A DNA stretch of 64,000 bases from Bacteroidota bacterium (lineage in GTDB: Bacteria; Bacteroidota; Ignavibacteria; Kryptoniales; JAKASW01): NCBI GenBank assembly GCA_021811615.1, contig JAJZNW010000109.1, positions 1-64,000 of the forward strand, in the 5' to 3' direction. The notes below the pieces were generated by a model, which worked only from the letters and a program-made list of their open reading frames with translations, was not told the origin of the DNA and did not search any database. The position numbers and the translations under genes were made by a program. This document shows, piece by piece, positions 26,632 through 54,352 of this stretch (position 1 is the stretch's first letter; the number at the start of each line of letters is the position of its first letter).

Positions 26632-29600
26632 ATGTCGTGCATTGGTTACAGAGGTAGTATTCGCACGCTGCTTGTGGTCTGCGGAGTGTTTTTGCTGGGG
26701 CACCCGATATCGGCAAAAGCGAGCGGCATCGTCAAGGGCAGGATTCTCGACCGGGAAACCCGGGAGGCCTTACCGGGGGCAACGGTGCTCGTGAAAGGAA
26801 CAAACATAGGGGCGGCCTCAAACATTAACGGGGAATATACGATTCAGGCGGCACCTGGCGGCAAGCAGATTTTGAATGTGTCCTATGTCGGCTACGTGTC
26901 GAGGGCAATTGAGGTGGAAATTGTCGAAAACAAGGAGACCGTCGAAGATATTTTCCTGGAACCTACGGCGATAACGGGCAAGGCGGTTGTCGTCACCGCA
27001 CAGGCTCAGGGTCAACTGGGTGCAATCAACCAGCAGCTTTCGTCGAACACGATTGAGAATGTCGTGTCGAAAGCGCGCATTCAGGAGATGCCGGACGTGA
27101 ACGCGGCTGAGTCCGTCGGACGTCTGCCGGGGGTATCGATCGAGCGTTCGGGGGGCGAGGCGACGAAAATTGAGATTCGCGGGCTCGATCCGAAGTATAA
27201 TCTTATTACAGTTAACGGAGTTCAACTCCCGGCCACCGGCTCGATCGGTATACTGCCTAATGGCCAGACTGTGCGTTCCGGCGACCGGAGCGTTGATCTG
27301 TCTCTCATTCCATCGAACATGCTGGACGGCATTACGCTAAAGAAGGTAGTCACTGCGGATATGGACCCGGCTGTCTTGGGAGGCACTGTCGATCTTACTC
27401 TGAAAGAAGCTCCAGCCGGCCTCCAAGGCAATTTCTCCGCGCAGGGCGGTTACAACCAGCTTCAGAAATATTACGGCGACTATAATTTTCAGGGAAGTCT
27501 AAGCGACAGATTTTTCGACGATAAGCTTGGAATCATAGCAAGTCTCCACGCCGACAATTATGACCGCAGTTCCGATAAGTTCGGCGGACAAGGCTCCGGT
27601 GGTTACCAACAGCAGGTATATAATGGCGTGACGCAAGCCCAGATCCAGGAGCTGACACTTACCGAGTCGAAAGTCAACAGAAAGCGAGCGGGCGCCAGCC
27701 TGTTCCTCGATTATGTCATACCGAGCGGAAAGGTTACCGCAAACGGTTTCATCAATCAACTTTACACGACAGGACTCAATCGCATCAACGACATGTGGGT
27801 CCCAGGGGCCGGCTACAACAGCAACCGCGATTATTATACTACGGACCAGTACACGAGTACGACCAATATCTTCACCAGTTCCCTCGGTTTCAGGCAGGAC
27901 TTAGGATGGATCAGTTATGATGCATCTGTATCGAGATCCGGCACTGAGAACGATGAGCCCAACGATCGCCAATGGCAGTTCGTACAGGATCAGTTTGCAT
28001 TCAGCGATCACCTGGTTCTCTTCCCGGGCGAAAATCCCATCGCAATTGCGGACTCGGCCACAGTCTCCCCAAGCAGTACCAAGCTGGCTTTCATTTATGT
28101 CAATAGCTACAGGCTTGTCGAAAATCAGACCTCCGCGCAGGCGAACTTCAGAATCCCTTTCCGGGCCGGCGATTTGGTCAGCGGCTATATGAAATTCGGA
28201 GGAGTCGCCAGGTGGGTCGCGAGGAGGTCTGACCAGGGCCAGCAAGGTCAGAACGGAATAAACTACAGTACAGGACAGAACGCCACCATCAATTACATCG
28301 GAACGTTCAGCCAGAAGTTGTGGGGCATCAATGCTGATTCGATAAACGGCCAATTGGGGTGGCTCCCAATAACTCCCTTCCTGATTGATTATTCTCGATC
28401 CAATTTTTTGAACGGCGATTACAAGCTCGGTATGGTGATCAATCAAGGAATCATGAACCGGATCTCCGATTCGCTTATGGCCAACGGCCGCCCTCTCAAT
28501 ATCTGGCGGACTTATTACATAAACAGCTGGGGTTTCGATTACGACGGAATTGAAAACTATGGCGCCGGATATGTAATGGGGGAGTTTAATTTGGGCCGAT
28601 ATTTCACGTTGCTTCCGGGCATCCGGTATGAAAACGAGTACACATTGTACCATGGCCAGACGTTCGCGCAATATACCCAGAACAATCAGGAACTGAGACC
28701 GGTAATATGGATCCCGGATACAACGAGCCGCGCGAAATCTTTCTGGCTCCCCGACGTGAACCTGATAGTAAGGCCTACTGAGTGGCTGCAGGTCAAAATG
28801 GCTCGGACAGAAACGCTCGCGCGACCCGACTATATCGAATATGCCCCGATAACGTATATCGACGCTTTGGGTCAGAACCTGACCGCATCCAATACAGGTC
28901 TTCAGACGGCTCACGCCGTGAATTATGATCTTGCCGCATCGATCTACGGGAGCGCGATCGGCCTTTTCTCAGTGGACGGTTTCTACAAGAAGATCGATAA
29001 CCTCATCTTTTTTGCAACGTTTAAGGCGAATCCAGGTGTGACGATCCCGGATAGCGCAGGCCTGGCCATTCCACCTGGCTTTCTCACGACTAACCCGAGA
29101 ATAAGCACCTTCCTGAACAATCCGAATCCTGCCTATTACAGCGGATACTCGGTTGAATGGCAGACGAACTTCTGGTATTTGCCGAGCGTCCTTCACGGCC
29201 TTGTGCTGGATATTAACTACACTCACATCTTCTCTAAGATGAAGCTGCAGTATTATAAGAGTGTTTCACAGATAGGTACTTCCCCGACCGACCCGAGACC
29301 TCATCTTGTCTATTCGTACGTCGACACTTCTACCGAGACGCGAATGCCGGATCAGCCCTCACACATTTTTAACGTCACTCTCGGCTACGACCTGGAAGGA
29401 TTCTCAGCACGATTGTCCTATTTGTACCAGACCGATAAGCTGACTTCCATCGGTTACGATGCCAGCGGATATCCTAGTCCGGTGTTAAGCACGTATGCAG
29501 GCCCCTATGGACGATGGGATCTCACGCTCCAGCAGAAACTCGGGACGCACATTCAACTGTTTGCGAATTTCAACAACATTAACGCTCAGCCCGACAGGAG

Positions 29601-29685
29601 CCTCGTTGGAATGAATCCGAACGATCCGTCGTATATCGAGTACTACGGATTTACGATAGATCTCGGCTTTCGTTATACGCTATGA
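26632..29685 (+). CDS. TonB-dependent receptor with N-terminal regulatory-like domain (module 1)
   Basis: The 1017-residue protein has a signal peptide to about residue 30, a carboxypeptidase-regulatory-like domain (GIVKGRILDRETREALPGA onward, about 33-115), a plug domain and a C-terminal barrel. Plug signatures VVVTAQAQGQL, AAESVGRLPGVSIER and IEIRGLDPKYNLITVNGVQL fit the TonB-Xanth-Caul group (TIGR01782), often linked to carbohydrate uptake. It resembles the receptor at 35258 throughout the N-terminal domains. No SusD gene follows; instead a T9SS-sorted beta-helix protein begins 60 bases on. The ATG is preceded by GGGAGAAGC. The likely ligand is an oligosaccharide from the enzymes downstream, by inference. 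Confidence 0.93.
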   Translation: MSCIGYRGSIRTLLVVCGVFLLGHPISAKASGIVKGRILDRETREALPGATVLVKGTNIGAASNINGEYTIQAAPGGKQILNVSYVGYVSRAIEVEIVENKETVEDIFLEPTAITGKAVVVTAQAQGQLGAINQQLSSNTIENVVSKARIQEMPDVNAAESVGRLPGVSIERSGGEATKIEIRGLDPKYNLITVNGVQLPATGSIGILPNGQTVRSGDRSVDLSLIPSNMLDGITLKKVVTADMDPAVLGGTVDLTLKEAPAGLQGNFSAQGGYNQLQKYYGDYNFQGSLSDRFFDDKLGIIASLHADNYDRSSDKFGGQGSGGYQQQVYNGVTQAQIQELTLTESKVNRKRAGASLFLDYVIPSGKVTANGFINQLYTTGLNRINDMWVPGAGYNSNRDYYTTDQYTSTTNIFTSSLGFRQDLGWISYDASVSRSGTENDEPNDRQWQFVQDQFAFSDHLVLFPGENPIAIADSATVSPSSTKLAFIYVNSYRLVENQTSAQANFRIPFRAGDLVSGYMKFGGVARWVARRSDQGQQGQNGINYSTGQNATINYIGTFSQKLWGINADSINGQLGWLPITPFLIDYSRSNFLNGDYKLGMVINQGIMNRISDSLMANGRPLNIWRTYYINSWGFDYDGIENYGAGYVMGEFNLGRYFTLLPGIRYENEYTLYHGQTFAQYTQNNQELRPVIWIPDTTSRAKSFWLPDVNLIVRPTEWLQVKMARTETLARPDYIEYAPITYIDALGQNLTASNTGLQTAHAVNYDLAASIYGSAIGLFSVDGFYKKIDNLIFFATFKANPGVTIPDSAGLAIPPGFLTTNPRISTFLNNPNPAYYSGYSVEWQTNFWYLPSVLHGLVLDINYTHIFSKMKLQYYKSVSQIGTSPTDPRPHLVYSYVDTSTETRMPDQPSHIFNVTLGYDLEGFSARLSYLYQTDKLTSIGYDASGYPSPVLSTYAGPYGRWDLTLQQKLGTHIQLFANFNNINAQPDRSLVGMNPNDPSYIEYYGFTIDLGFRYTL

Positions 29686-29744
29686 TATGGCTGTATGCAG
29701 GGCCAACTAATGTCAAAAAAAAACAAAAGAACTGGAGGAACGGT

Positions 29745-32369
29745 ATGAAGCTATTTTACAAAGTCATGCTCACGGCTTTCGCCATGGGTATTGCTTTCCT
29801 TTGGGTACCGAATGCACGCGCTCAGGGAGATACGCTTGTGGTCCCCTGGTCGGATTCTCAAGGGAATCTTGCTGTGGATACGCTTTACAATACCATCATG
29901 GGAGACACGCTTTCTAACGGTACGAGGAAGAATCTCAACCGTGTGTATCTCCTGCAAAAAGGCGGAGAATATTGGAATGATCTTACGATCAAGAATCAGG
30001 ACAGGTTCGGAAATTCTTTTGCACTTCGCCTGGTCGGCGAGACGCCTGATCCAACCAAAGTTCTTGGCAACCCTCCGACGCTGCAATTGCTTTCGACCAA
30101 CGGGCAGACGCACATCCTGCAGGGATACGGTGATGTCTACTTCAAGAATCTCTATATCATCGAATGCGACGAAGTGGGAAATCAATCGAAATATTACCAG
30201 ACGATAGAATTTGATGCGGGTAATACTCACTGCGTATTCGACAGCTGCATTTTTGAACGAGCCAACTTTGCCACGGTAGCATACACGACAAAGAACAACG
30301 ATATCACCTTTACCAATTGCGTGTTCCGTAATCTCGTCGAATACCCGATGACGCAGGAATGGACAGGACGCGGAATTTCGTGCTGGGCTGATCAGGACAG
30401 CGTTATCGTTGAGAACTGCACTTTCTTCAATGTCGGCATGTGTGCTCTTCAGATCGAGGGCGGCGCAGCAAAATATGTCCGCTTCAATCACAATACGCTG
30501 GTAGATGTCGGACACGGCATCAACAGCGGCTATAGCGGACCATGGTGGCGTGAGGCTTATTTCACGAACAACCTTTTCATCAACCAGTATTGGCATGGTG
30601 AGAGCAATCTTGAATATTCACTAGTTCTCAATCCGTCCCGTTATTGGGGTCCGTTGTCCGGTATGTTTACTATCGGGCCTTTGCCGGCACAGTACGGTGC
30701 AGACCTGGGGCGCAGAATTGCTTTTTCGTACAACGCGGGTTACCTCGCATCGTACTTCACCAGCCATTACGGTGACTCCGTGCGTGCACAACCCTTCACG
30801 AATGCATACACGGACTCTTTCTTCAACGCATACAGTCCCGCGAATGGCGGCCAAATGGTCAACTTAAACAACGTCACGCTCGGCGCTTACCCGCAGTTCC
30901 CGGCCGCTGTAGTCGATTCGCTCAATGCGCTTGCGCCGGTCCAGTGGACAAGCATAGTGGACGTGAGGGATGCAATAGCTAATCCTCCGTCGTATTTCTA
31001 TGACTACAACCCGGTGACCGCCACTGTGTTTACCAATCCGACGTGGCCTCTACCGGAAAGCTTCACCTATTCCGATGCATCGCTCATGAGCGGAAAGACG
31101 AGCGACAACCTCCCTCTGGGCGACCTGAGGTGGTTCCCGAGTTCGCTTTCGACTTTCAATGCGAACAAAGCACAGTATGTCAAGGGAGTTGAAACGATAC
31201 CAGGCAAGCAGTTTTACTTCAATGTCGATACGCTCGCGGAGGCTGAGGCCGGCACTGTGGGCGGCACAGCCGTCAAGAAGGCGACACCCGGTCTGACTTA
31301 CTACACTCAATCTAACGGCGCCGGAACAATTACCTGGACATTCACCGCCACGACTGCCGGGCAGTATGATACAAAATGGTACGTCAATGAAACGGGGCGC
31401 GGTCAGAGCGGTCCATGCCTCGCGATTGACGGGCAGCAATTCGTCGACAAAGCCCACGGCTGGGGCCAATTTGTGCTTGATTCGCTTTCCGGGCCTGCCA
31501 AGGGTCTGTCCAAGACAAACTGGATTTGGATGCCTGTTGTCGCCGATTCAATGGAACTCTCGTCTCCCGGGCCATTCGGAAATCCGGCCACGAGTCTGTT
31601 CACCTTCGCGGCGGGAAGTCAGCATACCATCGGCGTGATGGGAGGCGGCTGGGGAACTGTCCAGTTTGCGGAAGTCGATATTGTTGTCCATGGAGGAACA
31701 GATACCCTGAAGTTGAAGGCACCTGATGCAGTTACCACTCTCGTTACTCCGGGAGCCGTCGGAGTCAGTTGGGTTGCCTCAGGCTTCAAGTTTGATTCGC
31801 TCGGTTCCGCCGGTACGATAACCTGGTCACTGAACGCATCGAATGCGGGGAGTTATGCGATCAGCGTGAATTACCAGAATACCGGCGCAAACACGACGGC
31901 ACAAATCAAAGTGGACAACGGAACTCCTATCAGCGTTGATCTTCCGTCAAACAGCGATGGGCTCGGCCATGGCGTCCTCTCGAGCGTTGTGCCGCTTACT
32001 GCCGGTAGTCATACAATTGTCCTTTCTGGAGGCGGAGCAAACATCGACTTCATCCAGCTACAGGAAAAAGTGACCGGGATAAGACAGACATCCGTAGAGA
32101 TACCCGGCAAATTCGCGCTTGAACAGAACTTCCCCAATCCATTCAACCCGACTACTACGATAAACTACTCGATACCGAAGAGAAGCAATGTGACCTTGGA
32201 AGTGTACAACGTATTGGGACAGAAGGTCATGACACTCTTCACCGGTGTCCAGGCTGCAGGCTCGTACCAGTGTAACTTCGAAGCGGCCAGGTTTGCCAGT
32301 GGTGTGTATTTCTACCGGCTGCAGGCGGGAAGTTATTCTGTGGTTAAGAAGATGATGTTGCTTAAATAG
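29745..32369 (+). CDS. T9SS-sorted parallel beta-helix protein with two CBM-like domains (module 1)
   Basis: I start this 874-residue protein at the ATG at 29745, six bases after GGAGG; the frame is open upstream but without a signal. A signal peptide ends at about residue 27. Short repeats such as FTNCVFRN, VENCTFFN, FNHNTLV and FTNNLFINQ mark a right-handed beta-helix (about 90-300). Two beta-sandwich domains follow: one opening AEAEAG (about 500-640), CBM6/35-like, and another (about 660-775) ending in IDFIQLQE. The last 80 residues, FALEQNFPNPFNPTTTINYS to VVKKMMLLK, are a type A T9SS sorting tail, so the protein is exported and fixed at the cell surface. No pectate-lyase catalytic set was seen; a glycan-binding partner for the receptor is my inference. 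Confidence 0.88.
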   Translation: MKLFYKVMLTAFAMGIAFLWVPNARAQGDTLVVPWSDSQGNLAVDTLYNTIMGDTLSNGTRKNLNRVYLLQKGGEYWNDLTIKNQDRFGNSFALRLVGETPDPTKVLGNPPTLQLLSTNGQTHILQGYGDVYFKNLYIIECDEVGNQSKYYQTIEFDAGNTHCVFDSCIFERANFATVAYTTKNNDITFTNCVFRNLVEYPMTQEWTGRGISCWADQDSVIVENCTFFNVGMCALQIEGGAAKYVRFNHNTLVDVGHGINSGYSGPWWREAYFTNNLFINQYWHGESNLEYSLVLNPSRYWGPLSGMFTIGPLPAQYGADLGRRIAFSYNAGYLASYFTSHYGDSVRAQPFTNAYTDSFFNAYSPANGGQMVNLNNVTLGAYPQFPAAVVDSLNALAPVQWTSIVDVRDAIANPPSYFYDYNPVTATVFTNPTWPLPESFTYSDASLMSGKTSDNLPLGDLRWFPSSLSTFNANKAQYVKGVETIPGKQFYFNVDTLAEAEAGTVGGTAVKKATPGLTYYTQSNGAGTITWTFTATTAGQYDTKWYVNETGRGQSGPCLAIDGQQFVDKAHGWGQFVLDSLSGPAKGLSKTNWIWMPVVADSMELSSPGPFGNPATSLFTFAAGSQHTIGVMGGGWGTVQFAEVDIVVHGGTDTLKLKAPDAVTTLVTPGAVGVSWVASGFKFDSLGSAGTITWSLNASNAGSYAISVNYQNTGANTTAQIKVDNGTPISVDLPSNSDGLGHGVLSSVVPLTAGSHTIVLSGGGANIDFIQLQEKVTGIRQTSVEIPGKFALEQNFPNPFNPTTTINYSIPKRSNVTLEVYNVLGQKVMTLFTGVQAAGSYQCNFEAARFASGVYFYRLQAGSYSVVKKMMLLK

Positions 32370-32426
32370 TACCAAACGAACAGCCGCCAGACTGCTGTTA
32401 GAGCTGGCTGCCAATTTGTGAATCCG

Positions 32427-32455
32427 GGGCCGGGATGGTAAATGCCTCCCGGCCC
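32427..32455 (+). other. GC-rich hairpin after the first beta-helix gene
   Basis: GGGCCGGGA (32427-32435) and TCCCGGCCC (32447-32455) form a perfect 9-bp stem with an 11-base loop, 57 bases after the stop. No T run follows, so it may stabilise the mRNA end or act as a partial terminator. Confidence 0.5.
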
Positions 32456-32520
32456 ATATAAGCTGATCAAGATACACACGAACGATTAGCGGACGAATAA
32501 CTTAACGGACAAGAAGCACT

Positions 32521-34221
32521 ATGTGGAGTCGATTGATATCTCTCAGGGGCCGATCGCCGTGGTCAACACCAACCGGGAACATCACGTTAAATATTCTCGC
32601 CATGATGTTTTCTTTTTTTCTACCCTTTTCATCTGCCTGGTCCAAGACCATTGTGAGCGGGAAAATAACTGGAACCCGCGGAGAACAGATTCCTTTGGCG
32701 ATTGTATTCATCGGCGTGCCGGATCATCTGCAACCGGAGCGCCGAGTCAAGGCGGGGAGGAACGGCGCCTACGAAGTTGCTATCGAAACTAAAGGCGTTA
32801 AGTTGCTTCGCTTCACGGGAGCTCTTCATAAGGACTATACGATAGCCGTCTACGTGGACGAGCCTAAGACGATTCATCTCGATGTCAGGCTTCAGACATA
32901 CGATTACGGTGGAGACTTTGATGGGATGAAGGTTTTGGGTAGTTTCAACGATTGGTACCCACCGTCGGCTGTTTCACTCCAGAAGCAACTTGATGGTACG
33001 TACGCAGCTGACATCAGGAGTGAAGTTAAAAAAATAACCTATCGGTTGATAGGAGTCCCCGGCGGCGGCTTGGCCGGTACCGGGGCAGATCGATTTGTGT
33101 ATGTGCAATCGCAAGGCTATGCGGCTGTCGCGGTCCCGAGCCGTGGAATTGCTCGCATAGTTTTCGACCCCCGGAGACTTGTGAACCCTGGTGAACTCGC
33201 CGGTTGCGCATTCGGAGCTGACGATTCGGTGGAATCGAGATTTACGCGCGTGTATGATGAAGTTAGGTTGTGGAACAGTGCGTACGCCAGTTACCTAATA
33301 AAGTCTGTCAGCGATCGAAGATCCGGTCTGAAACAAGAGCCTTTTGATTTCGAAAGCATCCTTTCAAATCTCGAACGACAGATGCGGTCCGAGCCGAACA
33401 ATATCGTGCGGGCGGAATTGCATCTGGCGTATTTTGAAGTTCTCATGAAGGGAAAAATGGCAGACTCGCTGAGTGCAAGGGCATTACTGCAGGAGGTACA
33501 TCCGGGGTCTGTCGTCTGGTCGCTTTCACCAGGCATGATTTCGTCTGCTCTTGATGTCGCACAATATGATGACAGGATGAGAAATGACTACGTCGCAAAT
33601 ATGATCCATGATAATCCGAGCGTCGAAACGGTCGTGAGGGTCTTGTCCTATGAATTCCTTAGGAGCCTTTACGGTGGCGACAAGGAATCAGCTTTGCGCT
33701 CCTATGACATCGTGGTAAACCAATATGGAGAGACCCCTGGAGCAGAAGAAGTTGCACGCTACCATAATGTGAGCGCGGTCGATATCGGAAAAACAGCGCC
33801 TCTATTCTCCGTGAGTTCGATGCGGGATTCGAGCGTTGTTCTCACGCAGAAAAACTTTAAAGGCAAATATCTCCTGATCGACTTCTGGGCAACGTGGAGC
33901 AAGTCTTCTGTGGATGAGATGAAATACTTGGCAAAAGCGTACCGTGAATTCGGCGGGAACACTTTTGAGATACTGAGTATGTCTCTGGACAGCTCACGAA
34001 AAGCGGTGGACGATTCCTATTCGTTCAAATATGTGATGAAGTGGGTAAACGCTTTTGTACTCGGCGGAGTCGAGAGCAAAATCTGCAGAGACTATGAAGT
34101 CTTTGCAATCCCCAAGCCGATTCTGATCGATCCTCAGGGAAGAATTGTGGCAGTTGGCCTGGAGTTGCGCGGGGAACGATTGAGGAAGACACTCGCGAGA
34201 TTTCTCGATAAACGACATTAG
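32521..34221 (+). CDS. secreted regulatory-like/CBM48-like/thioredoxin-fold protein lacking CxxC (module 1)
   Basis: The 566-residue protein has an N-terminal hydrophobic export segment (about residues 22-41), then a carboxypeptidase-regulatory-like domain starting TIVSGKITGTRGEQIPLA, then a glycogen-binding (CBM48/E-set) domain with KVLGSFNDWYPPS. An alpha-helical region precedes a C-terminal TlpA/AhpC-like thioredoxin fold (about 425-560). There the active site is LIDFWATWSKSSVDE: serines at 460 and 463 replace both cysteines, so disulfide chemistry is not possible. The cis-proline loop IPKPILIDPQGRIV is kept. A paralogue of identical design lies at 40847. A role in sugar binding within the receptor module is inferred. 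Confidence 0.78.
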   Translation: MWSRLISLRGRSPWSTPTGNITLNILAMMFSFFLPFSSAWSKTIVSGKITGTRGEQIPLAIVFIGVPDHLQPERRVKAGRNGAYEVAIETKGVKLLRFTGALHKDYTIAVYVDEPKTIHLDVRLQTYDYGGDFDGMKVLGSFNDWYPPSAVSLQKQLDGTYAADIRSEVKKITYRLIGVPGGGLAGTGADRFVYVQSQGYAAVAVPSRGIARIVFDPRRLVNPGELAGCAFGADDSVESRFTRVYDEVRLWNSAYASYLIKSVSDRRSGLKQEPFDFESILSNLERQMRSEPNNIVRAELHLAYFEVLMKGKMADSLSARALLQEVHPGSVVWSLSPGMISSALDVAQYDDRMRNDYVANMIHDNPSVETVVRVLSYEFLRSLYGGDKESALRSYDIVVNQYGETPGAEEVARYHNVSAVDIGKTAPLFSVSSMRDSSVVLTQKNFKGKYLLIDFWATWSKSSVDEMKYLAKAYREFGGNTFEILSMSLDSSRKAVDDSYSFKYVMKWVNAFVLGGVESKICRDYEVFAIPKPILIDPQGRIVAVGLELRGERLRKTLARFLDKRH

Positions 34222-34236
34222 ACAAACGGGCACAGA

Positions 34237-34308
34237 CTAATCCAAACCGGCCAGTCTCTTCTCGGTAAGGAGCTGGAGAAAACTCTGGCCAGGTACCTGA
34301 AAGACTGA
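34237..34308 (+). pseudogene. remnant of a third thioredoxin-fold paralogue C-terminus
   Basis: Translated to its TGA, this piece reads LIQTGQSLLGKELEKTLARY and three more residues, LKD. It matches the end of the gene just upstream (the GERLRKTLARFLDK segment) in order and stop position. Only the last two dozen codons survive, 15 bases after that gene's stop. Confidence 0.6.
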
Positions 34309-34509
34309 GCTCCCGGCGGCCGGAGAATCATGGGCTGTACCATCTTCCTGGATGCGGCCCGGTTCGCGCGGCGAGTGATAAGCTGGCTTGGACGGATGGT
34401 GTGGCTTTCACACCGCTGATGGAAGGGGCCCATACCTGCACCTCTCCTCGGCGGCCGAATGGCAGCGCGCATTAATCGCCCTCCCCAGCTTCTTTTCTTT
34501 GCAGAGAGC

Positions 34510-34538
34510 TTGACATTTTGCCGGGCATCTCCTATAAT
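34510..34538 (+). promoter_or_regulatory. perfect sigma-70 consensus promoter
   Basis: TTGACA (34510-34515), a 17-base spacer and TATAAT (34533-34538) match the housekeeping consensus exactly. Transcription should start near 34545 and run to the ORF at 34621 and the second receptor at 35258. Confidence 0.75.
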
Positions 34539-34620
34539 TTGCACACAGAGAGAGTTCCAAAGTTCTTTACATTTCGCGGTCAACGAAGCACAATTACTTT
34601 CATGAAAGAGGGAGAAGCAC

Positions 34621-35121
34621 ATGCAAGTTTTTTGGTACCGCAATTTTTCTGTAGCCCGGGAAAAAGACCGATGCGGGCTCGACATCTCTAACCGAAGGAC
34701 GGCGGATGAAGGCCGCACCTACGATAGCCTGGAGATGCGATCGAGCGAAAGCACCTTGTCTCATCCCGCCCCCGGCCAGTATTCCGGGAAACGGATCGAC
34801 GGGCGAAATTTGGGATTATTTAGTTGGCGTTTTTTCAGTAGCCTCGCACAAAGCGTACTTTCAACATCAACGATAAGCAAATCTGTCACGCTCAGTGGAA
34901 ACCAAACCCACGCCAGCGTGAAGGAAAAATCGGATAGCACAGACCTGACTTACCGTAGTTTTGCTCGAATCTACGGATTCATTCAACGCACGGGGACTTT
35001 TTCCGGTAGACCAACCAAAGGGTTTCGATTGAAGCCAAGGTTAGTAGGGTCATTCAATAGTGACGCTGGTCTCTGCGAAAAGCCGAGCTTCTGTTACGCA
35101 TACTCCACTCGAAGACCTTAA
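34621..35121 (+). CDS. uncertain 166-residue ORF before the second receptor
   Basis: The ATG is preceded by GGAGAAGCAC, nearly the same signal used by the TonB receptor genes, and a consensus promoter lies about 80 bases upstream. The product (MQVFWYRNFSVAREK onward) has no signal peptide, no membrane segment and no family I recognise. Codon choice is mixed. It could be a real short gene, or a receptor gene start whose body has decayed, leaving a translated or untranslated leader for the receptor at 35258. Confidence 0.3.
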   Translation: MQVFWYRNFSVAREKDRCGLDISNRRTADEGRTYDSLEMRSSESTLSHPAPGQYSGKRIDGRNLGLFSWRFFSSLAQSVLSTSTISKSVTLSGNQTHASVKEKSDSTDLTYRSFARIYGFIQRTGTFSGRPTKGFRLKPRLVGSFNSDAGLCEKPSFCYAYSTRRP

Positions 35122-35257
35122 GTAATTCTGGAGCCTGCCTTCATTTTCGCATGATCCGGAGTCATGATCCGGCGCGGCGAATTGAAGATGCTCGCGTATG
35201 AAGCGTTCGAGAAGTCTCCAATAGACCGGATCTGTTTTAAAAAATAGGGAGAAGCTA

Positions 35258-38200
35258 ATGATCACAAAATCTTACAGATTTATGAAAGAATGCGTCCTTC
35301 TTTTCGGTGTCGCGGTGCTATTTGCTGCCGCCCCGGCACTGGCCGCCGGAACGGGGACTATCCAGGGTAAGGTGCTGGATAAAGGAACCAGGGGAGCACT
35401 TCCTGGAGCCAACGTGCTGGTGAAAGGGACGAGCATCGGTGCGGCGACAGACCTCAATGGAAATTTCACAATTGGCAACGCGCCCGCAGGGGAGCAGACT
35501 CTCGTCGTGTCTTACGTCGGCTATTCATCTTTGACCGAGAAAGTCGATGTCAGGCCCAACGAGACTTCTAACCTGGTAATCTACCTCGAACCGAAGGCTG
35601 TCAAAGGAAAGACGGTCGTCGTTACCGCTCAGGCCATCGGCCAGCTGGAGACGATCAACCAACAACTCGCCTCCAATAAGATTGCGAACTTCGTGTCCGC
35701 CGAGAAGATGAAACAACTTCCGGACATCGATCTTGCCGAGTCCATCGGCAGGTTGCCGGGCGTTTCGCTGGCAAGGTATGCCGGTCAAGGCTATGGCCTG
35801 ATAATTCGGGGGCTTTCGCCTCAGTATAATAGGGTGACTGTCGAGGGAGTCTCTATGGCGCCACAGGGTGAAGGCGACAGGTCGATCGATTTGAGTTTGC
35901 TGGGGAATAACCTGATCAGCAGCGTCCAGCTTTACAAGACACTTACGCCCGATATGAATCCGGATGAACTTGGTGGTACCGCCAACCTGGGACTCGCTAC
36001 CGCGCCCAAAGGGCTTCACATCGACGCGTCGGGAGACGGAGGATATAACCACGTTAGAAATACCTACAACAACTACGATTTGTCGCTCGGCGTGAGCAAC
36101 CGCTATTTCGGCGGCAAGTTCGGCGTCATGCTGAAAGGGAGTTACCAGCGGCTGCAACTTCCCTACGATGAGGCGAGTATCGGCTATTCCGGTCCGACGC
36201 ATTCCTCCGGCAATGCCAGTAATCTTTTTTATATAACCACCAACTCTGCGACGCTCATTGATAATAATGTCAATCGTCAGGACTACGGAGCCAGTTTAGT
36301 ACTCGATTATGAATCCAGTCTTGTCGACCTCAAACTGTTCAATCTGTATGAACAGAAGGTAGACGCAGTTACCCAGTTCAAGAATTTGTCGAACTTCGCC
36401 GGAGTGGGTTCATTCGATGATTCGGTTCTCGTCGGCACGAACAAAACAAATGAAGGTACGACCATACTCAACGCGCTGTTCAAACTCGGGGAGACTCGCC
36501 TGCCGATCACGCTCGCTTATACGACGGCAAACAACTATTCGCCTGACAATCAGACCTTTGCGATCACCGAGACCAACGTTCCTGGACCTTCAACCTCCCA
36601 GACGATTTATGCCACCCCGCTGCCGTTGCTCAATTACATGGGCGTTCTTAATCCTAAGAATTCAAACACGCTCCTGACCGCAATGTACATGGGCCAGTCT
36701 AAGGTCCTTGATAACGACTACGAGGCGAAAGCCGATTGGGATGTCCCGCTTACTATATCCAAGGAAGTTTCAATAGGACTTAAGATCGGAGGAGATTACA
36801 AATACAGAAATCGGTCTGCCGAAGCTACGCAGATCTATCCTCTGATACAGTATGGTGCCGGAGCGACCAACAGAGCGAATCTCGTCAATCTGATACCGCA
36901 ACTTCATGGAACGACGGTCAGTCAGCAATTGGGCGTCGTGGTGTACCCCTTTGTCAACACGGCTTACACTCGAACCAACCTGCTGGGCTATCCGATAGGG
37001 CCGGGCTTCAGTCCATCGCAACTTGTAACGATGCAGGATCTTTTCTATAGTCAATATCCGAAGGCTTTCTGGCAAAATGGCCCTGCAGATTTCAGCGGTG
37101 ATTATCTGGACAAAGAAAATACTGTCGCGGGCTTTGGAATGGCAACCGTCCATATCGGTAGAGCCCTGGATATCGTAGGTGGGGCTCGCTACCAGCAGGA
37201 CGCAACGCAGATTAGCGCGTATCATATGGATCTTAACAGCTCAAACCAGAGCGGACTCGCGGGCCAGGTGCCGGTATTGGTGACTGTCAAACGCCATATT
37301 CACAACTGGTTCCCCTCAGTCAATGTCATTTACAATACGGACAATGACCGGATACAAATCCGTGGAGCCGCTTACAAGAGTGCCTCCTTGCCCAGCTTCG
37401 GTCAGATATCTCCTCTGGTCGAGCTTAACATCGGCTATGTGTCTGCACTCAATAACCCGTTCCTGTCTGAAGCCACGGCGTGGAATTATGATGTCGGGGC
37501 GTCGTACAGGGACACGTACCTGGGCCTTTTCACGATCGACGGTTTCTATAAAGACATCAGCAACCTGGTGTATGGCGTCAGCTACATGCCGTTTGTCTCT
37601 CTCGGAAGCCTGCACGTTATTACTGAGGCCCCGGCTGAAGTGCTGAATAGACTTCCTTCACTCGCCTATTTCGATACAAGCTACGTTAAGGCGACTACAG
37701 CCATGAATGCGACCGTAGGTATACCTATCAATGAGACGAACGATGCTTACCTGAGAGGCCTGGAGCTGTCATGGCAGACCCGCTTCTGGTACCTGCCGGG
37801 AGTGCTCAGCGGTTTGATTCTGGACCTGAACTATACGGTGATGAGTTCAAACGAATGGTATCCATGGTTCGGATTCTATACGGGAGGTACTTTCGCAAGG
37901 CCGGTAGACACGCTTCGATATCAGACGACTGAGGGGCCGATATTGAACCAGCCCAAAGCCATATACAATGCAGTGTTGGGATGGGACTACAAAGGCTTCA
38001 GTGCGCGGTTCTCGGCTCAGTTGCAGGGCAATGTCCTCGAATACGTTGATACGAGATTCAATCTGCAGAACACCTATTACGGCGACGTGTTTTTGCTGGA
38101 CGTGGCCTTGAAGCAGCGGATCAATAGTTTATTATCCATCTACGCTAACGCTACGAACTTAACCAACCACAGCGATCAGTATTATTTCCAGCATCCATCG

Positions 38201-38299
38201 TACACCAGCGGCAGCAATATCTACCCGGCAGGGCAGCTGCCAACCGATCAACAGTTGTACGGGTGGATTCTACAGTTAGGCCTCTCATTCAATTATTGA
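35258..38299 (+). CDS. TonB-dependent receptor with N-terminal regulatory-like domain (module 2)
   Basis: This 1013-residue receptor has a signal peptide to about residue 30, a carboxypeptidase-regulatory-like domain (GTIQGKVLDKGTRGALPGAN onward), a plug with VVVTAQAIGQLETINQQL, LAESIGRLPGVSLARY and LIIRGLSPQYNRVTVEGV, and a long barrel ending GLSFNY. It is the same TonB-Xanth-Caul type as module 1, and the two N-terminal thirds align closely while the barrels and loops differ, which suggests different ligands. The ATG follows GGGAGAAGC. A hairpin pair and a beta-helix gene follow. No SusD partner is present. Confidence 0.94.
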   Translation: MITKSYRFMKECVLLFGVAVLFAAAPALAAGTGTIQGKVLDKGTRGALPGANVLVKGTSIGAATDLNGNFTIGNAPAGEQTLVVSYVGYSSLTEKVDVRPNETSNLVIYLEPKAVKGKTVVVTAQAIGQLETINQQLASNKIANFVSAEKMKQLPDIDLAESIGRLPGVSLARYAGQGYGLIIRGLSPQYNRVTVEGVSMAPQGEGDRSIDLSLLGNNLISSVQLYKTLTPDMNPDELGGTANLGLATAPKGLHIDASGDGGYNHVRNTYNNYDLSLGVSNRYFGGKFGVMLKGSYQRLQLPYDEASIGYSGPTHSSGNASNLFYITTNSATLIDNNVNRQDYGASLVLDYESSLVDLKLFNLYEQKVDAVTQFKNLSNFAGVGSFDDSVLVGTNKTNEGTTILNALFKLGETRLPITLAYTTANNYSPDNQTFAITETNVPGPSTSQTIYATPLPLLNYMGVLNPKNSNTLLTAMYMGQSKVLDNDYEAKADWDVPLTISKEVSIGLKIGGDYKYRNRSAEATQIYPLIQYGAGATNRANLVNLIPQLHGTTVSQQLGVVVYPFVNTAYTRTNLLGYPIGPGFSPSQLVTMQDLFYSQYPKAFWQNGPADFSGDYLDKENTVAGFGMATVHIGRALDIVGGARYQQDATQISAYHMDLNSSNQSGLAGQVPVLVTVKRHIHNWFPSVNVIYNTDNDRIQIRGAAYKSASLPSFGQISPLVELNIGYVSALNNPFLSEATAWNYDVGASYRDTYLGLFTIDGFYKDISNLVYGVSYMPFVSLGSLHVITEAPAEVLNRLPSLAYFDTSYVKATTAMNATVGIPINETNDAYLRGLELSWQTRFWYLPGVLSGLILDLNYTVMSSNEWYPWFGFYTGGTFARPVDTLRYQTTEGPILNQPKAIYNAVLGWDYKGFSARFSAQLQGNVLEYVDTRFNLQNTYYGDVFLLDVALKQRINSLLSIYANATNLTNHSDQYYFQHPSYTSGSNIYPAGQLPTDQQLYGWILQLGLSFNY

Positions 38300-38357
38300 C
38301 AAGAGATGTCGGATACAAAAATTGAAGCGAGAAACGGAATACCTGTACGTGATAAAT

Positions 38358-38420
38358 GGGAGCCGCGCTTTGACGCGCGGCCCCTTATTGCAAAACTGTG
38401 TCCTGGAGTTGTTCCAGGAC
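38358..38420 (+). other. two hairpins between receptor 2 and its beta-helix gene
   Basis: The first pairs CCGCGC (38363-38368) with GCGCGG (38375-38380), with outer GGG/CCC pairs possible. The second pairs GTCCTGGA (38400-38407) with TCCAGGAC (38413-38420), followed by AATTTTC. Neither has a full T run; partial termination or mRNA protection could give different levels of the two proteins, as occurs in susCD-type operons. Confidence 0.5.
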
Positions 38421-38462
38421 AATTTTCACACCAACACAACTCAAAAAACTTAAGGAGAAGTC

Positions 38463-40493
38463 ATGAAAGGAAAGATGCTACTGATCTTACTTTTGGGAAT
38501 GGCAATGGCCGGTTACGCCAATGCCGGAACCAGATTTCATTTCGGTAAGGTCAACGCAACGGGAATAACGGCGCCTGCAAGCCAGGATACGATATTTATC
38601 CCGGGAGATTCGCTGAACGGCACGACCAATAACGGTCTGCTTGAAGCGACCATCAACGGCGATACCACCACGTCTGGAGCCCGCGTCAATCCCAACCGTG
38701 TTTACGCACTCTACGAGGGTCAGATATACTACCAGTTCGCAATTCTCCAGGTGACGGATCCGAACGGCACCCTGTCGATCGTCGGCGTCCCGAATCCAAA
38801 AGATCCGAGCGCAACTGAAAAACCTATGATACTCATGGTCCCGACTTCGGGCGTGGATCTCAACGCGAACCAGGTGTACGGAAGCGTCAATATCGACAAT
38901 GTCTACTGGAGCGCAATGCAGCTCGACGGCTACAGGAATTGGGATTTGTTCCAGCTCGGTACGATGAATCAGCTGCCCCAAAGACTCACAGTCAACAACT
39001 GCGTCTTTGAGTTTGCCTACGGCTCTCTTTTCACCGCGAATGTCTCGTACATCGGCGGCTGGCCTTACGGCGCGAGCTTCTTCATAAAGAACTCGTACTT
39101 CAGAAACCTGATGGATGCCAGCCAGTGGTGGAGCTCAAGGGTGATCTCCTGCAAGGAACCAACGGATACGCTGTGGATCGAAAACAGTACATTCACTACT
39201 GGCGGTCTTCTCTTCCTGCAACAGAACGAGCTGACAGATTTCACCTACATCAATCATAACACCATCGTGAACAACAGGAAGTATTGGCTGCTTTCCCCGT
39301 ACAGACATGTTGCATATATCGCGAACAACATCTTCATCAACCAGAACTGGGTCGGTGAGGATACGAACGTGACGAACAGCGGCCAGGATCCCGACAAGGC
39401 GTATATGAGTACGATCAATATCGATACGCTCAATTCTCCCTGGCAACTTCAGCATAATGGGCTCGTGGTCAATCCGCAGTACATGATCAACGGCGATACC
39501 ACGAACGTTTCCTCGGCTCTGGCGCTCAACAAGCTCAAGATTTTCGTCGCTGACAATATCAATTACTACAGCCCGTCGCTTATCAGTGGCTACTACAATT
39601 CATCGACCTATGAGCTTGCGACGAATCCCCGTACGGGAGCCGCTTTCAACGCTCTTCCGTCATACCTGACATGGGCGGGCGATACTCTTACCCCGTTCCC
39701 GATCCACAACGTGCCCGGCATGTGGATGAACTCCCGTACGCAGGCTCTCTTCAAGGCTTATTCACCGGCGAACGGCGGCGGCTTCGTCGAGTACCACGAT
39801 AGCACCGAAGATCCCGGCACGAAAACCCCCGGTATCCAGGATCCTTCTGTAGTCGTACCCCTGATGGCAGAGTGGAACCAGAATCAGTGGGGCGATCCGA
39901 GATTTGCGACGTCTCCTAATATCACAGGTTCTCCATACATTTACGGCGACTATACAGCCACAACTGTTCCAGGACTTGTGAACGGCGTGCCCAGCGACAC
40001 TATTACTCAGACAGATCCCGGTGTTCAGGTCGGAATCACGAACTTCTGGGACTTCACTGAGAACTTCGGCCAGTCGAGCCATATCTCGGACATCGATGGT
40101 TATCCGATCGGCTCGCTTATCTGGAGCAAAACTGCGATGGCGAATTATAACCCCGCGATGGCGTTGCAGGATGTTGAGAACAAGTACCAGAGCCTCACGC
40201 CTGTACTGTCCCGCCCGACAGTCGCGAATTCTTTTGCGCTTTCGCAAAACTATCCCAATCCTTTCAACCCGACTACGCAGATCGCCTATTCGGTACCGGA
40301 GAAAGGCGCGAATGTGACCCTGGCAGTCTACAACGTCCTCGGCGAGAAGGTCGCCACTCTCTTTGAGGGTCACCAGGCCGGCGGCGAGCATTTTGCTACC
40401 TTCAACGGCGCGAGACTGGCCAGCGGCGTCTACTTCTACCGCCTGCAGGCCGGCTCCGTCAACATCACTAAGAAGATGATGATGATCAAGTAA
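38463..40493 (+). CDS. T9SS-sorted parallel beta-helix protein (module 2)
   Basis: The 676-residue protein has a signal peptide (MKGKMLLILLLGMAMAGYANA), beta-helix repeats (VNNCVFEF, IKNSYFRN, IENSTFTT, INHNTIVN, IANNIFINQ) and a C-terminal T9SS type A tail from FALSQNYPNPFNPTTQIAYS to NITKKMMMIK. It is a paralogue of the module 1 protein: the opening NPNRVYALYEG block, the repeat order and a shared AYSPANGG motif all align. It lacks the two CBM-like domains seen there, so those are insertions or losses. No catalytic residues of known polysaccharide lyases are evident. The ATG lies after AAGGAGAAGTC; a strong terminator follows the gene. Confidence 0.88.
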   Translation: MKGKMLLILLLGMAMAGYANAGTRFHFGKVNATGITAPASQDTIFIPGDSLNGTTNNGLLEATINGDTTTSGARVNPNRVYALYEGQIYYQFAILQVTDPNGTLSIVGVPNPKDPSATEKPMILMVPTSGVDLNANQVYGSVNIDNVYWSAMQLDGYRNWDLFQLGTMNQLPQRLTVNNCVFEFAYGSLFTANVSYIGGWPYGASFFIKNSYFRNLMDASQWWSSRVISCKEPTDTLWIENSTFTTGGLLFLQQNELTDFTYINHNTIVNNRKYWLLSPYRHVAYIANNIFINQNWVGEDTNVTNSGQDPDKAYMSTINIDTLNSPWQLQHNGLVVNPQYMINGDTTNVSSALALNKLKIFVADNINYYSPSLISGYYNSSTYELATNPRTGAAFNALPSYLTWAGDTLTPFPIHNVPGMWMNSRTQALFKAYSPANGGGFVEYHDSTEDPGTKTPGIQDPSVVVPLMAEWNQNQWGDPRFATSPNITGSPYIYGDYTATTVPGLVNGVPSDTITQTDPGVQVGITNFWDFTENFGQSSHISDIDGYPIGSLIWSKTAMANYNPAMALQDVENKYQSLTPVLSRPTVANSFALSQNYPNPFNPTTQIAYSVPEKGANVTLAVYNVLGEKVATLFEGHQAGGEHFATFNGARLASGVYFYRLQAGSVNITKKMMMIK

Positions 40494-40560
40494 TCGGCTT
40501 GAAACTTCATTCCCTTACTGTCTCTTTCATTTGAGAGACGGGAGAGAAAAGTGATTTGAT

Positions 40561-40597
40561 AAAACTGGGAGATGGATATTATCTCCCAGTTTTATTA
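40561..40597 (+). terminator. strong terminator after the second beta-helix gene
   Basis: AAAACTGGGAGAT (40561-40573) pairs perfectly with ATCTCCCAGTTTT (40581-40593) over 13 bp with a seven-base loop, ending in TTTTATTA. The A/T flanks make it able to act in both directions. It ends the receptor-beta-helix transcript. Confidence 0.85.
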
Positions 40598-40846
40598 TTA
40601 AGGTATCGTGGTATTACTCCGCATAAACCACTTTGGCATGTCCCGGTCGAGCAACTATCCGGCAGCCTGTCGGCCTTCCCTCCAAGCCCAATCGACAGAT
40701 CGGGAAGACTCCCGTGATACTTGATTGCAGCCGGATTCCGGGAGATTCGTTCCGTTTCATTTTTTTGGTGCGGGTGAACCCGGAGGATTGTTCCGGCAAT
40801 CCGGGTAGTCAGAATTTTTCCTTATTTAGATTGAAGGTGTGTTTTT
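40598..40846 (+). other. leader of the second thioredoxin-fold gene
   Basis: Together with the terminator this completes a 353-base gap. It holds a hairpin, ACCCGGA (40778-40784) with TCCGGGT (40800-40806), and an AAGG signal nine bases before the ATG at 40847. No gene or clear promoter was recognised. Confidence 0.4.
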
Positions 40847-42478
40847 ATGATCAAAAGGTTCTTTGGTGTTCTGTTCATCGCCGGCATCGTTTCGACTTCC
40901 TCGCTGGCACGGACGGTTGTCTATGGCAGAGTCAGCGGCACGGACGGTAAACCAATTCCGGCTGCAAATGTATTTCTGTGCCATCCGGGCGATGACCATC
41001 CCGTTAGGAGCTTCACGGTTCGCAAGGACGGCGGCTACGAGGTAGACATTCCTTCGCCGGGAATTTGGCTGCTCCGTTTTACAGGGATATTCCACCGCGA
41101 GTATCCGATCGCCATCTACGCAATCAACGGGGCCCGGTCACGCCTAAACGTTAGTTTGCGGACCTATAACTACGGAGGCGTCTTTACTCCGGCGGTCATT
41201 GGGAATTTCAACGGCTGGTCCGTATCGAAGAGGATACCTTTCAAAAAGGGACCTGACGGCATTTACTTCGCCACCGTACCGTGCAGTTCGGATACACTCG
41301 TTTACCGGTTGGTGAACGTAAGGTCCGGCGGGGAAGTCGAGGGTACCGACGCCGCAGGGTATGTTCCCAATGGGATGGAGAATTACAACTCCTTCCTCAT
41401 CGCACGCAAGAGTGAGGTCAGAGTAGAGTTTGATCCCAACCGCCTTCCCTATTCAAAAAAGCCTACCGCTTTCGAGTTTGCCAACTCAGGCTCGTTCGAA
41501 GCAAGATTCGCTCGTGCGTACGCTGGGTTCGAGGCTGCAAAGCAGGATTCCAGAGCGTCTTTTTTCAAAAGCGTGGTGAACCACCGTATGATGGGTCATA
41601 AGTTCGACTATCGTCCATATATAGATAGAGTGGAGTCTATGCTGCACGGAGAACGCAACAGACTGGTCCGTCAGGCGCTTGAGCTCAGCTATTTCTCAAT
41701 CAGCTACATCAGCACCAACGGCGATTATGTGAAACCGAAGTTGTGCCAGCTTCTACTGACGAGCATTCCTCCCGACTCCCCGGTGTGGTCGCTTCGACCT
41801 TCCTCTATTTCGGAGGCCATAGATTTCTCCGGCTATCCCATGTACAAGAGAATGGACTATATTCGGGAAGTGTTGAATACTAATCCTGTCTCCCAGACCA
41901 AGATCACTCTCCTCGCAAATCGAATCCTCATCATGTCCCGCTCGTTGAATCCCGGCGAGATGATTCCATATCTGTCGATGCTCGTCGATCAATACGGCGA
42001 TTCGCCTGAAGCGATTGCCGATGCCAGGGCCTATTCAAAATACATCCAGCCGAAGGATGGTAAGCCCGCTCCTCAGTTCTCCATAAATTCGTATCCCGAC
42101 ACATCCTCGCACATAACGAATAATCTCTTCAATGGGAAGTACTGTCTGCTCTACTTTTGGTCGCCGTCCAACCGGAGTTCAATTGAGGAAACCGAACGCC
42201 TTCAAAGGCTTCAGGAGAAACTTGGGGACGAAAAGATCGCGATGGTGAGCGTTGCTTTGAATTTTCCTTCCAAATCCAGGAAGAAGCGCGTGGTACCCGG
42301 GAAGATTCTTCGCTATAACGCCGAGGTTCAGAACGGTTTCAACAACAAGATTTGCGAAGATTACGAAGTATACTCTCTTCCCAAGCTTGTGCTTATCGGC
42401 CCGACGGGAAATGTCGTGGCCTCAGGCTGGGAGCTTCATGGAAACAGGCTCGACACACTATTGAGGAGCCTGCGCTGA
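40847..42478 (+). CDS. secreted regulatory-like/CBM48-like/thioredoxin-fold protein lacking CxxC (module 2)
   Basis: This 543-residue protein repeats the design at 32521. A signal peptide (MIKRFFGVLFIAGIVSTSSLA) leads to a regulatory-like domain (TVVYGRVSGTDGKPIPAANV), a CBM48-like domain (AVIGNFNGWSVSK), a helical middle and a C-terminal thioredoxin fold. The active-site strand reads YFWSPSNRSSIEE: N442 and S445 stand where the CxxC cysteines would be, so it too is redox-inactive. The loop LPKLVLIGPTGNVVA keeps the cis-proline. The two proteins align over full length. The gene has its own leader after the terminator and ends 38 bases before the next glycosidase. Confidence 0.78.
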   Translation: MIKRFFGVLFIAGIVSTSSLARTVVYGRVSGTDGKPIPAANVFLCHPGDDHPVRSFTVRKDGGYEVDIPSPGIWLLRFTGIFHREYPIAIYAINGARSRLNVSLRTYNYGGVFTPAVIGNFNGWSVSKRIPFKKGPDGIYFATVPCSSDTLVYRLVNVRSGGEVEGTDAAGYVPNGMENYNSFLIARKSEVRVEFDPNRLPYSKKPTAFEFANSGSFEARFARAYAGFEAAKQDSRASFFKSVVNHRMMGHKFDYRPYIDRVESMLHGERNRLVRQALELSYFSISYISTNGDYVKPKLCQLLLTSIPPDSPVWSLRPSSISEAIDFSGYPMYKRMDYIREVLNTNPVSQTKITLLANRILIMSRSLNPGEMIPYLSMLVDQYGDSPEAIADARAYSKYIQPKDGKPAPQFSINSYPDTSSHITNNLFNGKYCLLYFWSPSNRSSIEETERLQRLQEKLGDEKIAMVSVALNFPSKSRKKRVVPGKILRYNAEVQNGFNNKICEDYEVYSLPKLVLIGPTGNVVASGWELHGNRLDTLLRSLR

Positions 42479-45663: not shown

Positions 45664-45869
45664 CCGTTTCTCACGAGAGGTTGACTTAGGTACCGCCCGG
45701 CAGCCGGTGCGAAGATGTGGCCGGTAAGTCAGGCAGGCTCCTGAAGCTTGTATTTATCCGGCTTGCTTGTTAAGTAGTGATGATTTGTCGGGAGCTCCGG
45801 GGGGAACTCTGCCGTTTCCCCGGGAGGCTTTCTAAATCTAAAGTCGATGGAAGGAGGGCTTTCGGATTT

Positions 45870-48416: not shown

Positions 48417-48440
48417 AAAATCAAATGAGGAGTTGCAGTC

Positions 48441-50012: not shown

Positions 50013-50101
50013 TGAGTACGCCGGGGCCATCTTCGATGGAATATGGGCGAGTTGTTCTTATCTTACGGAAAATGAGACGGCCCGTGGCAGGGCATCAACC
50101 G

Positions 50102-50130
50102 TTGTCTCTTTCAGTCATATATTATATAAA
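50102..50130 (+). promoter_or_regulatory. sigma-70-type promoter for the SDR gene
   Basis: TTGTCT (50102-50107), a 17-base spacer and TATAAA (50125-50130) lie 37 bases before the ATG at 50167. The predicted start near 50137 gives a 30-base leader. Confidence 0.55.
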
Positions 50131-50166
50131 TGAATTATCGGTTATCACTATTGAGGATGCAAGGAT

Positions 50167-51156: not shown

Positions 51157-51489
51157 AAAAGCTTCCGGACAAAGCGATAGATGACGGTTCGGCCGACAAT
51201 TCGAAATCCGGGAAAGCTGGGACTGATGATGGAACGCGTTCCTTCTTTTCCTGAGGATGTCCGGTGATCGACTCGCCGGGCTTCCGGAATATGGACATTC
51301 CAATTGGAGTCGGTCCCATTCTGGAAGACGGCCATGATTGATAATGCCGCCGATGCTGGCTAATTTAGGTTGAAATTTCGGTAAATGCCTCGAAGGGAGA
51401 GAGGAAGAATAGGTTTTGGAACTACGTCGTTCGAGATCGGATGGATCTTAACCTGCCAGTGATGCAATAAACCAACCAAGGGAGAAGCC
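51157..51489 (+). other. 333-base gap with a broken coding-like frame
   Basis: A GTG overlapping the SDR stop (GTGA) opens a 33-codon frame reading VKKLPDKAIDDGSADNSK and on to a TGA. The same frame continues beyond it with DIPIGVGPILEDGHD before the next stop. This may be the eroded start of a lost gene. Near 51480 the leader GGGAGAAGC precedes the next gene. No promoter was seen. Confidence 0.3.
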
Positions 51490-52869: not shown

Positions 52870-52884
52870 GGAAGGAATTCATGC

Positions 52885-54300: not shown

Positions 54301-54352
54301 TATTTGCTCCAACAGGTAATTTAGCGGTACTACGCGGACACAGCCTTCGAAA

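Follow-up and report, generated by a model that had tools for sequence, protein, structure and literature searches.

A TonB-Xanth-Caul type receptor and a type IX-secreted beta-helix protein as a probable two-part nutrient uptake unit in Bacteroidota

The 64,000-nucleotide stretch analysed here (the window; bases 1-64000 of contig C18 in a Bacteroidota draft genome of 4.49 Mb, 150 contigs and 84% completeness) carries two successive modules, A and B, each encoding a TonB-Xanth-Caul type TonB-dependent receptor, a beta-helix protein with a type IX secretion system (T9SS) sorting tail, and a thioredoxin-fold protein. Our comparisons revealed that the receptor and the beta-helix protein (hereafter, the partner) are regular neighbours that descend together, and we consider it fairly probable that they constitute a two-part nutrient uptake unit in which the partner catches the substrate. 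In such a unit, the receptor would serve as a TonB-powered outer-membrane channel, while the partner would be exported by the type IX system, stay at the cell surface and bind the incoming glycan (or other polymer) for the receptor, in a position equivalent to that of SusD next to SusC. On this view, a glucomannan-like locus in the window would hold two adjacent units of different old subfamilies, and 3' of each lies a thioredoxin-fold protein without redox cysteines that would more likely be periplasmic than exposed at the surface.

A first-pass annotation, made from the sequence alone, had described these three genes as occurring in the same order twice, with all three pairs alignable; both the order and the coordinates (Table 1) proved right. 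More specifically, receptors A and B share 32% identity over 997 columns (E 3e-128), the partners share 26% over 565 columns of their bodies (E 2e-23) and 63% over the 90 columns of their tails, and the thioredoxin-fold proteins share 34% over 534 columns (E 2e-92). Homology of the two partners persists after removal of the 90 C-terminal residues, and partner A alone, not partner B, passes the Pfam Beta_helix cut-off. The same pairing recurs throughout the genome. The 25 matches to TIGR01782 gave 16 full receptors plus five weak matches (19-41 bits) that were left out, and 14 of the 16 are directly followed, on the same strand, by a T9SS-tailed protein; compared without their 90 C-terminal residues, these 14 proteins link as one family.

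A profile built from the bodies of the 14 partners (A2) matched proteins in 17 of 41 genomes, with 0 to 25 matches per genus mate among those listed; in one genus mate (G004), the matches listed include neither a partner nor a receptor above 40 bits. The matches listed for 12 relatives contain 79 receptors, not counting receptor matches below 92 bits, which come from fragments and from receptors of other types. For 60 of these 79, a partner lies on the same strand no more than 1.5 kb 3' (within 360 bp for 57 of the 60), and, conversely, 60 of the 70 listed partner matches sit at this distance 3' of a receptor. Local profiles run on the surrounding DNA added six receptors and raised the count to 66 of 79; three of the six have weak partner matches (L118, L125 and L131; 108-126 bits), and the other three have one intervening gene (L120, L121 and L130). 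Two further receptors lie at contig ends (L127 and L129), and four more distant ones are followed by a different T9SS-tailed protein (L122, L123, L132 and L136, in G006:C28, G008:C10, G031:C31 and G040:C14, respectively). Thus, adjacency of receptor and partner, which the first-pass annotation had proposed checking elsewhere, is common in other genomes and not rare. As an observation apart, later genes of L136 read like phosphate-binding PstS and Pst transporter proteins, a context suggesting that a second design of receptor and T9SS-tailed partner may exist for phosphate compounds.

Likewise, the association between receptor and partner was evident in the wider class. Among the class genomes of the phylum-wide sample described below, a receptor above the TIGR01782 cut-off occurs in 18 of 22 with a partner match versus 2 of 20 without one (Fisher p 2.8e-6); among the four exceptions with a partner match, the partner is marginal in three (G094, G225 and G383; E 1e-13 to 1e-5) and the receptor is cut by a contig end in the fourth (G279). 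Across the 22 genomes, 35 of 43 listed partner matches lie 35-330 bp 3' of a receptor. In a phylum-wide sample, in which at most three candidates were scored per genome, so that counts are lower bounds and zeros are not strict, partner matches were found in at least 57 of 395 genomes and at least 39 of 170 genera. Forty regions from 32 of these genomes were chosen around partner matches, and in 39 of them a receptor adjoins the partner on the same strand (L157 has none); since the regions were chosen by partner, they are uninformative on receptors without one. The L148 receptor sits beside a third copy of the partner and not beside the two for which the region was chosen, and in L176 a 191-aa open reading frame (ORF) lies between receptor and partner. 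The order is reversed in L168, L175 and L177, where the partner is followed by a short separate N-terminal receptor piece (225-247 aa) and then by the receptor. No description of this pairing was found in the literature by title or opening of abstract, in a search largely of work outside subscription journals and preprints.

We compared receptor and partner trees for 109 pairs, in which the receptor exceeded 500 bits and 850 aa and the partner 100 bits; 13 of the 14 pairs of the genome itself are in this set, and reversed-order, shadowed-ORF and region-split pairs are absent from it. Distances in the two trees were correlated at r=0.903, whereas shuffling partners within genomes gave a mean of 0.275 (sd 0.043; largest value in 1000 shuffles, 0.429). 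When each of six genomes was taken singly, the observed correlation was reached never or once in 2000 shuffles.

The receptors belong to a class distinct from SusC. Both window receptors exceed the TIGR01782 cut-off (Table 1), confirming the first-pass assignment to the TonB-Xanth-Caul type, and both score 69.6 bits against TIGR04056 (SusC/RagA), well below its cut-off of 368.25, compared with 487.4 bits for a SusC of the same genome. All eight partner-linked receptors of other genomes that were scored at full length reached 337.9-419.6 bits with TIGR01782, while several other receptors in the genome and its relatives fall below the 310-bit cut-off. SusD, stated earlier to be missing from the modules, is indeed absent: no SusD match occurs anywhere on contig C18, and the partners themselves have no SusD Pfam match. 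As judged by eye, none (PF12771 or PF14322; PF07980 in the genome itself only) lies within about 6.8 kb of the listed TonB-Xanth-Caul receptors in seven genomes, so the first-pass concern that a SusD might partner these receptors elsewhere was not borne out there. The genome does encode two SusD-like_2 proteins (L035 and L037; G000:C133 and C25), each adjoining a receptor that has no beta-helix partner; one of these receptors scored as SusC-type, and the other was recognised solely by its Pfam domains and location. Across six genomes of the genus, SusD gave 0-2 matches per family search versus 0-25 partner matches in genus mates, among the matches listed.

The partners carry the marks of T9SS cargo. 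The tails of partners A and B score 44.6 and 39.8 bits, respectively, with TIGR04183 (cut-off 23), a hydrophobic N-terminal stretch is present in all 109 partners (as estimated by a rough count instead of a signal-peptide predictor), and the genome has two copies of SprA; type A tail, hydrophobic N-terminus and SprA thus coincide for both window partners. Searched against the Protein Data Bank (PDB), profile A2 found no convincing relative (best E 0.24), whereas a profile of 27 diverse members (A5) matched the polysaccharide lyase family 6 (PL6) alginate lyase BcAlyPL6 (7dmk) at residues 445-681, i.e., its second domain (E 8.9e-11); two stretches of the first, catalytic half scored below zero. 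Both halves of that enzyme are reported to be right-handed beta-helices, of which the second fixes the substrate and helps to shape the pocket (PMC8618178). The positions most conserved in the 109 partners are Gly480, Asp239, Tyr97, Leu91, Trp484 and His270, followed by several Asn and others. Pfam matches among the 27 A5 members (E up to 1) comprised Beta_helix (12), DUF5123 (6), CBM_35 (5) and DUF4957 (3), and NCBIfam added nothing useful beyond T9SS tails. When five long partners were tested singly, CBM_35 exceeded its cut-off in three (L149, L152 and L155) and stayed below it in L182 and L065; the C-terminal part of partner A has a CBM_35 trace (E 0.032).

On these profiles, substrate binding without cleavage appears to be the likeliest role of the partner, and we hold it to be reasonably probable. 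It could instead be an extracellular enzyme, acting as a lyase, hydrolase or epimerase to shorten the polymer where it enters the receptor. Beta-helix folds are common among lyases, the protein to which the profile is akin is itself of family PL6, and 107 (98%) of the 109 partners retain Asp239 while 105 (96%) retain His270; this conservation, together with the weak lyase activity reported for the second domain of BcAlyPL6 on its own (PMC8618178), speaks for an enzyme and against mere binding. However, the significant match is to that second domain only, and the conserved Lys and Arg that PL6 enzymes are described as using (PMC6879350) have no counterpart, in that, across the 109 partners, the best Arg column reaches 74% and the best Lys column 69%, the latter at the start of the signal peptide. 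Moreover, partners occur in xylan, GH88 and glucomannan-like loci, which seem too varied for one activity. We therefore regard an enzyme as unlikely. Slightly less likely still is a partner that binds glycan alone at the surface, in the manner of SusE or SusF, without touching the receptor. A position near the receptor fits such proteins too, many loci have further T9SS-tailed proteins (the gene next after 25 of 115 receptor-linked partners encodes one), and weak matches to DUF5123 (6 of 27) and DUF4957 (3 of 27), which we take to be families of Bacteroidetes glycan loci, point the same way. Against this, in nearly all cases no gene lies closer to the receptor than the partner does, the two occur in an almost one-to-one ratio, their trees are congruent, and the absence of SusD beside the listed receptors of the seven genomes compared leaves no other primary partner in view.

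Several observations weigh against a two-part uptake unit of receptor and partner, beyond the residue conservation and lyase activity already mentioned. Pairing is incomplete: two of the 16 receptors in the genome have no partner (L030, where the next gene reads like a glucose-1-phosphate adenylyltransferase, and L036, where it encodes a 369-aa protein), nor do 7 of the 79 listed in the relatives, which have neither another T9SS protein nor a contig end alongside (L119, L124, L126, L128 and L133-L135). Conversely, 10 of the 70 listed partner matches in the relatives and 8 of the 43 in the class have no receptor directly 5'. Two partner-less class genomes (G106 and G156) have TIGR01782 receptors of 525 and 512 bits, and 17 of the 20 partner-less genomes have a match at E <=1e-30, mostly below the cut-off; strong receptors in such genomes mean that TIGR01782 also covers receptors without a beta-helix partner. 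Co-descent demonstrates inheritance as a unit and is not proof of contact. A structure model of the partner from a three-sequence alignment reached a mean pLDDT of 35.9 and was not used, so that the beta-helix fold rests on profiles. Finally, one pair of the genome (L025) is followed by an amino-acid permease, hence the substrate need not be a glycan, and the L149 partner is followed by a sodium:solute symporter. Among ten downstream genes sampled from pairs of the genome, three encode glycosidases (GH94, GH2 and GH76), and the other seven are MFS, permease, rotamase, FG-GAP, RCC1, T9SS-tail-only and one without a match. The first-pass proposal that the beta-helix protein replaces SusD as receptor partner is upheld to the extent that it is a regular neighbour of this receptor type; that what it catches is glycan remains a conjecture.

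The same annotation had regarded the two modules as a tandem duplication, and this did not survive the trees. A recent tandem duplication of one three-gene module would account for the repeated order and the three alignable pairs, and the partner tree places just 14 of the 107 remaining partners nearer to A than it places B, with A and B in a joint clade of 33 (support 0.73). In the receptor tree, however, 88 of the 107 other receptors are closer to A than B is; receptor A falls in a clade of 12 and receptor B in a clade of 5, both with support 1.0, the partner tree has the identical 12 and 5, and each clade includes genomes from outside the class. Modules A and B thus are old and distinct, with partners less far apart than receptors. 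Gene order in relatives agrees: G009 (L065) has module A, then a 152-aa ORF and homologues of window 50166-52070, without module B, while L044 (metagenome-assembled genome [MAG] Bacteroidetes bacterium SKS5.bin54) is 83-89% identical in DNA to window 34489-44090, and the gene before this shared stretch encodes another member of the thioredoxin-fold family, which shares 33% identity with thioredoxin-fold protein A. We consider tandem duplication to be ruled out by the trees, or at best extremely improbable, and given the trees and these two gene orders, we favour the modules having been placed side by side as cassettes.

The third protein is an accessory of some modules and not part of the core, its gene being next after the partner in only 7 of 115 receptor-linked cases. 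A model (mean pLDDT 76.5, pTM 0.65) shows beta domains and a helical part ahead of a C-terminal domain that Foldseek relates to TlpA/ResA (best E 1.2e-12). The CxxC motif is absent from all nine copies in or beside modules (L079 keeps one Cys), of which seven lie directly 3' of a partner and two (L043 and L044a) were counted by DNA homology or contig-end position. In contrast, CxxC is kept in 10 of the 11 homologues examined elsewhere, a set that leaves out the genus-mate matches G008:C30 and G006:C16 and includes the third copy of the genome itself. The thioredoxin-fold proteins have no T9SS tail and, by pattern search, no lipobox, so a periplasmic location is likely. Together with the loss of CxxC and the rarity of the gene beside partners, this runs counter to the first-pass suggestion of a surface protein that assists binding. 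The label "CBM48-like" given to it likewise has thin backing: no CBM_48 match occurs in the window copies, and the paralogue L137 has one of 18.7 bits, below the cut-off of 22.4. That paralogue (L137:513-2147; G000:C56), the third copy with its CxxC intact, stands on a 5.2 kb contig with no receptor or partner.

The features of the window are listed in Table 1.

Table 1. Features of the window (positions are those of the 64,000-nucleotide stretch)
Feature	Position	Strand	Basis and remarks
Receptor A, TonB-Xanth-Caul type TonB-dependent receptor	26632..29685	+	N-terminal CarboxypepD_reg_2 domain and plug; TIGR01782 317.4 bits (cut-off 310)
Beta-helix partner A, 895 aa, T9SS tail	29682..32369	+	Pfam/TIGR profiles, homology
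T9SS type A sorting tail, partner A	32130..32357	+	Residues 817-892; PF18962 / TIGR04183
Thioredoxin-fold protein A	32521..34221	+	Beta domains, helical domain, TlpA/ResA-like C-terminal domain with WSKSS replacing WCxxC
Perfect sigma-70-like promoter consensus (TTGACA-17-TATAAT), ahead of module B	34510..34538	+	Consensus match only; also in relative L044
166-aa ORF in long leader of module B	34621..35121	+	No Pfam match; C-terminal end not conserved in L044; probably not a gene
Receptor B, TonB-Xanth-Caul type	35258..38299	+	TIGR01782 311.3 bits (cut-off 310)
Beta-helix partner B, 676 aa, T9SS tail	38463..40493	+	Profiles, homology
T9SS type A sorting tail, partner B	40251..40481	+	Residues 597-673; PF18962 / TIGR04183
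Thioredoxin-fold protein B	40847..42478	+	No CxxC (SPSNRSS)
Further locus genes (those below and others)	42517..63978	+	Pfam
Weak GH5-like	42517-45663	+	
GH9	45777-48416	+	
Two GlcNAc_2-epim genes	51490-54300	+	
GH5	54444-56294	+	
SASA esterase	56344-58380	+	
Raffinose_syn	60611-62827	+	
GH130	62986-63978	+	

The true start of partner A is likely at 29745, before the signal peptide; its body spans about 29745-31184, followed by an extra C-terminal region (weak Golvesin_C in addition to the CBM_35 trace) and the T9SS tail. Beyond the window, the contig continues with GH94, MFS and GH2 genes (L038), and these together with the GH9, GH5, GH130, GlcNAc_2-epimerase-type and esterase genes point to a glucomannan-like locus. 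Directly 3' of module B, the weak GH5 match is the sole one of a 1048-aa protein, which is possibly an undescribed glycosidase; in L044 and L043, DNA homology extends into this gene. An Rfam scan of the window gave no match above the gathering score, and a custom motif search was likewise empty. The promoter-like site ahead of module B is kept in L044. Sites scoring at least 9 of 12 numbered 21 in this stretch versus about 15 in shuffled sequence, so only this 12/12 site stands out. Sites resembling TTGACA-17-TATAAT at 10 of 12 or better look enriched upstream of receptors, as they precede 38 of 126 receptors (in L023, for instance, one lies 323 bp 5' of the receptor at 6544) compared with 19 of 126 after letter shuffling and 15 of 126 inside receptor genes.

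A counterpart of the pair appears to stand in an organism that can be cultured. Region L164 encodes, in order, GH43-CBM6, CBM4-CBM4-GH10 (997 aa), a receptor, a partner with a Por tail, a PPIC rotamase, a T9SS-tailed protein and GH10, an order and domain content that fit Rmar_1068 to Rmar_1074 in Table 1 of PMC6987092; judged by this fit, receptor and partner match Rmar_1070 and Rmar_1071 of the Rhodothermus marinus xylan locus. That table names them "TonB-dependent receptor" and "Hypothetical protein", respectively, and the paper describes the Rmar_1070 receptor as predicted to be co-transcribed with RmXyn10A (PMC6987092). A PPIC-type rotamase of about 590 aa lies near the partner in a few loci, namely L026:5168-6958 in the genome itself, L164:10267-12042 in R. 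marinus, L159 and L163; as a regular third gene of the module it was rejected, being next after the partner in only 2 of 115 cases.

More broadly, it is conceivable, at a little below an even chance, that a second class of two-part importers powered by TonB exists phylum-wide in Bacteroidota, in which a TonB-Xanth-Caul receptor works with a type IX-secreted beta-helix lid derived from a substrate-holding domain. Such a class would do a job equal to that of SusC/SusD with an unrelated partner, would be the main class in this genus, and in some modules would have recruited a redox-dead thioredoxin as periplasmic cargo receiver. SusC/SusD is treated as the mark of Bacteroidota glycan loci; if the proposal is true, loci with the beta-helix pair go uncounted wherever loci are called that way, many of them could be found by sequence, and the proposal could be tested in cultured R. 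marinus (Rmar_1070/1071). For groups including Kapabacteria, the part of PMC10576277 considered here leaves open how glycans are taken up. If the window genome lies near those groups, the receptor and beta-helix pair would be a direct candidate answer; one relative of the third protein comes from a Melioribacteraceae MAG.

Compared with known systems, the partner resembles BcAlyPL6 in that its profile matches the second beta-helix domain of that enzyme, and differs from it in having a T9SS tail and neither a catalytic half nor the conserved Lys and Arg. The third protein has a C-terminal fold like that of TlpA/ResA thiol-disulfide oxidoreductases, whereas the module copies have no CxxC. In Proteobacteria, TonB-Xanth-Caul receptors belong to carbohydrate loci and fall under the same receptor subfamily model as those described here, but we know of no T9SS beta-helix partner beside them. 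The R. marinus xylan locus has a pair of the same family between GH10 xylanase genes; it differs in that a SusC/SusD pair, Rmar_1077/1078, is also present further on, and Rmar_1071 is not paired with the receptor in the part of PMC6987092 considered here. A parallel in arrangement is SusC/SusD (RagA/RagB), where the gene directly after the receptor likewise encodes a surface protein dedicated to it, where the loci also contain enzymes that cleave glycans, and whose receptors share the N-terminal CarboxypepD_reg_2 domain with those of the present modules. The receptor here, however, is of TIGR01782 and not TIGR04056, and the neighbouring beta-helix protein, which bears a T9SS tail, lacks any SusD Pfam match; this partner is SusD-like in position and unrelated to SusD in sequence.

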